From positions 1-46,100 of the forward strand of contig CAUJGQ010000159.1 in the NCBI GenBank assembly GCA_963170165.1: a stretch of 46,100 nt of DNA. Reading direction: 5' to 3'. Source of the stretch: Chloroflexota bacterium (GTDB lineage: Bacteria; Chloroflexota; Dehalococcoidia; CAUJGQ01). The notes below the pieces were generated by a model. That model ran no database searches and was not told where the DNA came from. It saw nothing but the letters and a program-made list of their open reading frames with translations. Both the position numbers and the translations under genes were made by a program. How positions within the stretch are numbered: the stretch's first letter is position 1; each line of letters starts with the position of its first letter. Below, in pieces: positions 34,378 through 37,278 of the stretch.

Positions 34378-37278
34378 CTATTGCACGGTGATGACGCCCT
34401 TCATCTCTGGATGAAAGGAGCAGAAGTAGGGATAGACACCGGGCTGAGTGAAGGTAAACCGGAAGGTTTCGCCCGTGCTCAAGACCGGCGTGCTCTGGAA
34501 GGTGCCATCCGGGTGCCCCCAGACACCGCTGAACACGTTATGGGTCATGCCGAAGTCATCGTTGATCCAGGTGACGGTCTCCCCCACCTTGATCGTCTTA
34601 TCGCCGTTGCGGAAGCGGTGCTCGCCGTGATTAGGGGCGATCATGTGTACCTCAAGCGGCCCCCAGGTAGCCGGATCGGTAGCGATGCCCATCTGCATAC
34701 CGCCCGCTTGACCAGCGGGCATCGCGGCCATCCCGTCTCCCGACATCGTACCCATGCCCGGACTGGTGAACTCGCGGTAGACGCCGATGCTCACAGCCGT
34801 CACCGCGGTCAGGAACACCGCCGCCGCCGTGATGGTCGCCATACGGGTGCCCCGCAGCCGGAGGGCATTGGACAGTACCGTCACACTCGACAGTGCCATC
34901 GCCGCCGCCGCCAGCATCGGGTTAATCTTGCCGAAGATCGCCAGCGGGATCAGCAGCACATTGTAGGCGAACGCCCAGAACAGGTTCTGCTTGATGTTGC
35001 GCATCGTCGCGCGCGCGAGGTCAATCGCCTTGGCCACGGCGCGCAGGTCGCCCTTCACCAGTGTGATACCCGCCGTCTCCATCGCCACATCGGTGCCGGT
35101 GCCCATGGCGATACCAGCATCGGCCTGGGCGAGGGCGGGGGCGTCGTTGATGCCGTCGCCCACCATCGCCACTACACGGCCTTCCTCCTGGAGCTGCCGG
35201 ATCGCCGCCGCCTTCTCCTCGGGCCGCACCTCGGCCACCACCCGATCGATACCCACTTGGCGGGCAATGCTGGTCGCAGTCCGGCGGTTGTCGCCGGTGA
35301 GCATCACGGCGCTGATGCCGAGCTTATGCAGCCGCGCTACCGCCTCGGCTGACCCTTCCTTAACGGTGTCCGCGATGCCGATCACCCCGGCCAGGCGGCC
35401 GTTGACCGCCACCAGCACCGTGGACTTCGCCTCAGACTCCAATCGCTCCAGTGCCCCTGCACCGGGGGCGAGGTCAACGCCGTCCTCAGCCAGCAGGCGC
35501 GCCGAGCCGATCACGAGCCACTGCCCCGCCACCGTCGCGCGCACGCCGCCACCGGGGGCCGCCGTGAACTGCGTCATGGGCGCAGTCAGGTCCTGCCCCT
35601 GCTCGCGCGCCCGCCGCACAATCGCCGCCGCCAACGGATGCTCGGAGCCCTGCTCGGCTACTGCCGCCAGGCGCAACCAGTCATCACCTTCGAGCGGCAC
35701 GATGTCCGTTACGGCCGGTTCACCGCGGGTAATGGTGCCGGTCTTGTCGAAGACGACGACGTTGACGTCGCGCATCCGCTCCAGCCGGTCGCCGCCCTTA
35801 AGCAGGATGCCCTGCTCGGCGCCGCGGCCGGAGGCGACCATGATCGCCGCTGGAGTGGCCAGACCAAGGGCGCACGGGCAGGCAATCACCAGCACCGCCA
35901 CCGCGGACACCATGGCGGGAACCGCGCCACGACCGGCGGCCAGCCACCCGGCAAACGTGAGCAGCGCCACCAGCAGGATGGCTGGGACGAACACGGCGGA
36001 GATACGGTCTGCCAGTTGCTGGACCGGCGCTTTGGCGGTCTGCGCCTGCTCCACCAGCCGGATGATCTGGGCGAGCTGCGTCTCCTTGCCGACGCGCTCG
36101 GCGCGCATGCGCAACAGCCCTTGCTTGTTCACCGTCGCGCCGATTAGCGAGTCGCCAGGCTCTTTGGACACAGGCAGGCTCTCACCCGTGATCATCGACT
36201 CATCCACGGAGGAGCGTCCGTCCAGCACCACGCCGTCTACTGGCACACGCTCGCCGGGGCGGATGATGACCGTGTCTCCGGGGCGGACACGCGTCACGGG
36301 GATATCCTGCTCCACGCCGTCCCGCACCACCCGCGCCGACTTGGGGGCAAGGCCCATTAGCCGGCGGATGGCGCTCGAGGCACGGCCCTTGGCGATGAAC
36401 TCCAGCACCTTACCCAGATAGATGAAGGTGAGGATCACCGCTGTGGTGTCGTAGAAGGTGTCTCGCCCGGCCAGCGATGCCCCTATCGAGTAGAAGAAAG
36501 CAACAGTAGAGCCGGTGGAGACGAGGGTATCCATGTTGGCGGCCAGATGGCGCGCCGATTTGAGGGCGTTGCGGTGGAAGTCCCAGCCCACCACCACCCA
36601 CACCGGCAGCGTCAGCCCGAACAGCCAGACGTCGCGGTTCGCCAGCCCCATGGCGAACATGGCGATGTACGTCACCGGCGCGGTCAGCACCAGCCCGAAG
36701 GCGAGAATGGCCAGCTTGCGGCGCAGCGTGCGCTTCCAGCCGCTGTCTGGGTCTGCCTCTTCCGTATCCTCCCCGCTGACCTCCGCATCCTCTGGGGCAG
36801 TTACCGGCGTCGCACGATAGCCGGCCTTCTCCACCGCCGCCTGCATCGTCTCCAGCGCGGCGGGAGTCGCCTGGTCAAGCGTCACCGTCGCGCGCTCTGT
36901 GGCGAGGTTGACGGCGGCCGTGGCGACACCCGCGGTGCGGGTCAACGCCCGCTCCACCCGGCGCACGCAGGAGGCGCAGGTCATGCCCTCGATGGCGAAC
37001 TCCACCGTCTCCGGCGGCGCGGTGGCGCGGGGCTTGGCCCCGTAGCCGGCAGCCTCGACGGCGGCAACCATCGCTTCAGGGTTTACTCGTGCCGGGTCGT
37101 AGGTGACGGTAGCACGCTCGGTGGCAAGGTTGACCAGCGCCGTGTCTACGCCGTCCATCTTCTTCAGCCGGCGCTCGATGCGATTGACGCAGGAGGCGCA
37201 CGTCATCCCGGTGATGTCGAGCTCCACCTCACCTGCGTGCAGGGCGCTGGCGAGCGAATCCGGTTCTTTGGTGACCAT
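34378..37278 (-). CDS. copA: Cu(I)-exporting P1B-type ATPase fused to a C-terminal blue-copper (cupredoxin) domain
   Basis: A 966-residue copper pump. Two N-terminal HMA domains carry GMTCASC at Cys27/30 and Cys101/104. The core has TGES at 364-367, the intramembrane CPC at 467-469, the phosphorylated Asp511 in [13 protein letters not shown], and [20 protein letters not shown]. Late-helix YN and MxxSS motifs mark Cu(I) selectivity. Normal CopA ends near residue 808; here follow a ninth hydrophobic helix (~813-833), a Met/Gly-rich linker (~838-866) and a cupredoxin domain with candidate ligands His913, Cys953, His956 and Met959 (Cys-x2-His-x2-Met as in amicyanin). The extra helix would place this domain outside the membrane. 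The ATG at 37278 has AAGGA upstream; a TTG at 37314 is alternative. The gene lies between csoR and copZ. Confidence 0.95.

Follow-up and report, generated by a model that had tools for sequence, protein, structure and literature searches.

P1B-1 copper pumps have eight membrane helices, with the N- and the C-terminus both inside the cell. The window analyzed here, that is, the whole stretch of 46,100 nucleotides from a Chloroflexota bacterium, encodes a copper pump whose frame runs on past the eighth helix. The locus raises two questions: whether an additional domain is really part of this pump, and what such a domain would do at the side where copper leaves. The gene lies in an operon with the order csoR-copA-copZ, all on the minus strand, with the following features:

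37327-37629, minus strand: csoR-type copper-sensing repressor (PF02583), upstream of copA
34378-37314, minus strand: copA, P1B-1 copper ATPase with a C-terminal cupredoxin, 978 aa from TTG
36820-37221, minus strand: pair of cytoplasmic HMA domains for copper binding (GMTCASC at residues 36 and 110)
35872-35880, minus strand: CPC transport-site motif, residues 479-481 (sequence motif)
35734-35748, minus strand: DKTGT phosphorylation motif, residues 523-527 (sequence motif)
34777-34839, minus strand: ninth membrane helix, residues about 826-846 (from hydrophobicity)
34663-34776, minus strand: linker, residues 847-884 (38 residues, 6 Met), not conserved in relatives
34381-34662, minus strand: cupredoxin domain, residues 885-978 (Pfam, AlphaFold model, Foldseek)
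34540-34542, minus strand: H925, predicted first type-1 copper ligand, invariant in 38 aligned sequences
34402-34422, minus strand: ligand loop C965-S-F-H968-P-E-M971 (Cys-x2-His-x2-Met), with C and H invariant and M in at least 90% of the 38 aligned sequences
34117-34350, minus strand: copZ-type cytoplasmic copper chaperone (HMA), downstream of copA

A likelier start of copA is the ATG at 37278 (M13), which is preceded by AAGGA. Beside the operon, at 37678-39810 on the plus strand, a class II aldolase and a short-chain dehydrogenase share one frame, which we take to be a known fusion. Another plus-strand frame (31235-32542) encodes a predicted protein of 435 aa in which a unit of about 100 residues (DWVSVVR.GTPDDVYE.TW) occurs three times in similar form, together with a spacer rich in proline; it has no Pfam match.

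The core of the pump is that of the family. Pfam recognizes two HMA domains, E1-E2_ATPase, HAD, and Copper-bind (PF00127) in the protein, which scores 613.7 bits against a cut-off of 397 for the copper-translocating ATPase model TIGR01511, and all P1B-1 motifs are present: CPC at 479 (M4), DKTGT at 523, AFAYN at 781 (M5), and MALSS, of the MxxSS type, at 806 (M6). The HMA domains, the eight-helix core, the CPC, YN, and MxxSS motifs, and the operon with csoR and copZ are shared with CopA of Archaeoglobus fulgidus (3j09) and Legionella pneumophila (3rfu). However, these known proteins end inside after helix eight, in agreement with the earlier statement that standard CopA lacks the extension, whereas the window protein continues with a ninth helix and a domain predicted to lie outside. 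The eight-helix architecture with a cytoplasmic C-terminus is common in P1B-1 pumps rather than strictly defining, and the window pump is a nine-helix variant that keeps the family core.

The sequence-only reading had proposed that the pump continues in the same frame into the domain, and had named a hidden stop as one thing that would refute this. There is no stop between pump and cupredoxin in 34378-37314, GC by codon position is coding-like across the helix, the linker, and the domain, with GC3 values of 0.74-0.93, and stops abound in the two alternative frames of the tail. G001, the one further genome from the window's family, encodes the same architecture in a 903-residue frame, 65% identical overall and followed by copZ. 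Since a one-off frame or assembly error would not recur in another genome, such an error is ruled out. The copA gene with an extra helix and a cupredoxin is a genuine and, as described below, recurrent fusion.

The ninth helix appears as a hydrophobic peak at residues 827-845, beyond the pump's own helices, as had been claimed. Because the pump's own helices are even in number, one more would bring the C-terminus to the outside. The loop leading into helix nine carries 3-9 Lys/Arg in all tailed pumps examined, and the residues that follow the helix are less positive, which is the expectation of the positive-inside rule. The outside topology assumed earlier is thus also the predicted one, and we infer that the C-terminal cupredoxin lies on the outer face, at the copper exit side. 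An AlphaFold model of the full-length protein, built from 7 sequences, contains a separate helix at 826-850; its mean pLDDT of 58 is too low for placing the domain relative to the exit.

The linker fared differently. Eight methionines had been counted in it, and a Met-rich relay to the copper site had been suggested. In fact, residues 847-884 contain six, seven are reached by extending to H890-M891, and eight only if M825 before the helix is included. The enrichment exceeds chance in the window protein alone (P about 6e-4) and is absent from relatives: the sister protein in G001 has no Met between the helix and E-V-H-M, and most other fusions have none within 40 residues after helix nine. Since even the closest relative does not conserve the linker, the relay is rejected as a general mechanism.

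The domain itself was predicted to have a cupredoxin fold with an amicyanin-like loop and an upstream His, and both predictions are borne out computationally. PF00127 matches residues 898-978 with 38.9 bits (cut-off 21.2). The AlphaFold model of residues 872-978 has a mean pLDDT of 90.6 and is matched by Foldseek (E about 1e-8) to the small archaeal cupredoxin of Nitrosopumilus (5fc9), the best structural match, as well as to plastocyanin and amicyanin; pseudoazurin is also among the hits. The His-Cys-His-Met residues H925, C965, H968, and M971 sit at the equivalent type-1 positions of the 38-sequence alignment and make up the full ligand set. The domain is thus a type-1-like cupredoxin with a predicted copper site. 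Amicyanin of Paracoccus denitrificans (1aac) is similar in sequence, fold, and loop, but it is the free electron carrier of methylamine dehydrogenase; the window domain is not, and at 50.2 bits it falls below the amicyanin equivalog cut-off (TIGR02657, 110.2). The window and sister domains are 48% identical, while each is 51-58% identical to free cupredoxins. Being no closer to each other than to unfused proteins, they are either little constrained or replaced, and a domain swap may have occurred in one of the two pumps.

The distribution of such fusions contradicts the uniqueness implied by the initial description. The fusion of the window kind was seen in no further genome of the 100 relatives compared, almost all of which belong to the same class, and both a scan of the genome contigs and a plasmid search with the window tail yielded unfused cupredoxins only. 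A survey of 400 sampled genomes of the phylum, with a second fused tail as the query and subsequent retrieval of the genes, revealed 25 further pump-cupredoxin fusions after helix nine, in families f75, f88, f104, f105, f113, and f123. Intact C-x4-H-x4-M sites are present in 11 of the 25 domains; the remaining 14 (L219-L224, L226, L228, L229, and L231-L235, from f88, f113, and f105) lack some or all of the copper ligands. Other pumps show other endings at the same place. In family f82, whose operons also have the order csoR-copA-copZ, the pumps have a similar ninth helix but stop directly after it. The sister genome G001, outside f82, has copA-copZ. Seven pumps (L177, L179, L180, L181, and L237-L239) have tails of about 300 residues, apparently of two similar halves and in part weakly YtkA-like (26.7 bits for one, with the cut-off at 25.9, and a score below the cut-off for another), and yet others have short, partly His-rich tails. 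Apart from pumps, long frames of many tandem cupredoxin domains were observed at L059, L012, and L020.

A single origin of all fusions is rejected. In the tree of pump cores, from which the tails were removed, 39 ninth-helix pumps form one clade (99% support); L214, one of the 11 intact fusions, was left out because it is cut by a contig end. The window pair, that is, the window pump and its sister, groups with the f82 pumps inside a clade of 22 mostly tail-less pumps (100% support). Forcing the pair together with the large clade lowers lnL by 133 and is rejected (p-AU 5e-29), as is a constraint of all ninth-helix pumps to one clade; these p-values are overstated, as the groups were picked after inspection of the tree, but the support values agree nonetheless. 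L177 and L181, with their 300-residue tails, are again placed apart. The cupredoxins also differ in kind, C-x2-H-x2-M in the window pair versus C-x4-H-x4-M in the large group: the window domain as a query finds no large-group member at E below 1e-3, and the large-group domains match one another first. With the pumps apart in the tree and the cupredoxins of different kinds, the sequences indicate that the fusion arose independently at least twice. An unfused neighbor version of the same idea is seen on contig C46 of the window genome, where a CPD-type metal pump lies near a lipoprotein-like cupredoxin gene (L003:408-842, plus strand; 1468-3765, minus strand) with a DUF305-like gene upstream; this cupredoxin (C-x4-H-x4-M) resembles the fused domains of the large clade.

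Associations of cupredoxins with copper ATPases are known in other forms. In Streptococcus pneumoniae CopA/CupA a cupredoxin-like domain is also joined to the pump, but it lies in the cytoplasm at the N-terminus and has a binuclear Cu(I) site, whereas the window domain is C-terminal, predicted to be outside, and has type-1 ligands, and the window N-terminus consists of two HMA domains. CopI and other copA-adjacent cupredoxins (Rubrivivax; Alteromonas merR-copA clusters) are likewise linked with copA in copper resistance but are encoded by separate genes, in contrast to the fused one here. The reviews and phylogenies consulted mention no fused cupredoxin other than the S. pneumoniae domain, CopI and the Alteromonas proteins being unfused. 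Of the earlier proviso that the arrangement might prove common and already described, recurrence is real, while the mostly open-access literature searched describes no copper ATPase with an outside cupredoxin at its C-terminus; domain databases may list the architecture.

The most likely explanation is that the domain accepts copper at the exit while tethered to the pump, a covalent counterpart of the hand-off from CopA to CusF, and we assign it a probability of about 0.5. In E. coli, CopA hands Cu(I) to apo-CusF docked at its exit, and no free copper is released (PMC9470648, PMC7558416). Given this hand-off, an acceptor role is the simplest job for a tethered barrel at the exit. The likeness to CusF, an extracytoplasmic beta-barrel acceptor, is an analogy of role only: CusF is a free protein with an OB-like fold and a Met2-His site, whereas the window domain is tethered, with a modeled cupredoxin fold and a type-1 site. 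In the proposed mechanism, the C-terminus of this Cu(I) exporter would cross the membrane once more and hold the type-1-like cupredoxin outside. The pump would receive Cu(I) from CopZ and the HMA domains and, driven by ATP, move it to the exit, steps established for the P1B-1 family. The cupredoxin, at high local concentration, would then take Cu(I) and hold it in its His-Cys-His-Met site before passing it to external acceptors. The multicopper oxidase and the COX2 (CuA) oxidase encoded in the genome are possible recipients. No Met relay is needed here. That a copper-binding domain was gained here repeatedly and independently counts in favor of the acceptor; against it, 14 large-group pumps keep the domain without a complete copper site, the window and sister domains are as near to free cupredoxins as to each other, and type-1 sites bind copper tightly and suit electron transfer rather than ion release.

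A different possibility is that the domain oxidizes exiting Cu(I) to Cu(II), or exchanges electrons with a respiratory partner at the exit, leaving exported copper less able to re-enter. The complete ligand set with its amicyanin-like loop, the archaeal cupredoxin as the best structural match, and the COX2-type oxidases of the genome fit such a role. Yet no electron partner is encoded beside copA, each domain would hold one self-filled copper and would need a partner for turnover, and relatives have degenerate domains; we consider electron transfer unlikely. The module may instead be an outside regulator or a structural cap that senses external copper or shields the exit, copper binding being secondary or dispensable. 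With the ligands lost in 14 domains, copper binding cannot be the sole role in those pumps, and the degenerate domains of f88 and f113 indicate a module that, in some pumps, has another task or none that involves copper. Other pumps, with YtkA-like domains or short tails in this position, point in the same direction, but all four ligands are retained in the window domain, in that of the sister pump, and in eleven further fused domains, and we consider this role equally unlikely. Least likely is a neutral fusion, in which a pump already having helix nine read through into a neighboring cupredoxin gene without functional consequence: the f82 pumps, ending just after helix nine, suggest that the helix probably preceded the domain, and the domain sequences diverge fast, but intact ligands are kept in two genera at 65% identity and the fusion has arisen more than once.

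Detailed knowledge of how copper leaves CopA without free release comes mainly from CusF in a Gram-negative bacterium. If the acceptor role is true, the hand-off at the exit becomes testable inside one polypeptide, and natural controls exist at the same position: helix-only pumps, intact cupredoxins, degenerate cupredoxins, and other modules. A broader and more tentative view, which we hold at somewhat less than even odds, is that the copper pump of this phylum may be a self-contained delivery machine. Helix nine, evolved several times, would be the attachment point for interchangeable modules on the outside, namely cupredoxins of two kinds, YtkA-like domains, and His-rich tails. These modules would take up Cu(I) as it leaves the pump, and some of them may later have become copper-free regulators.
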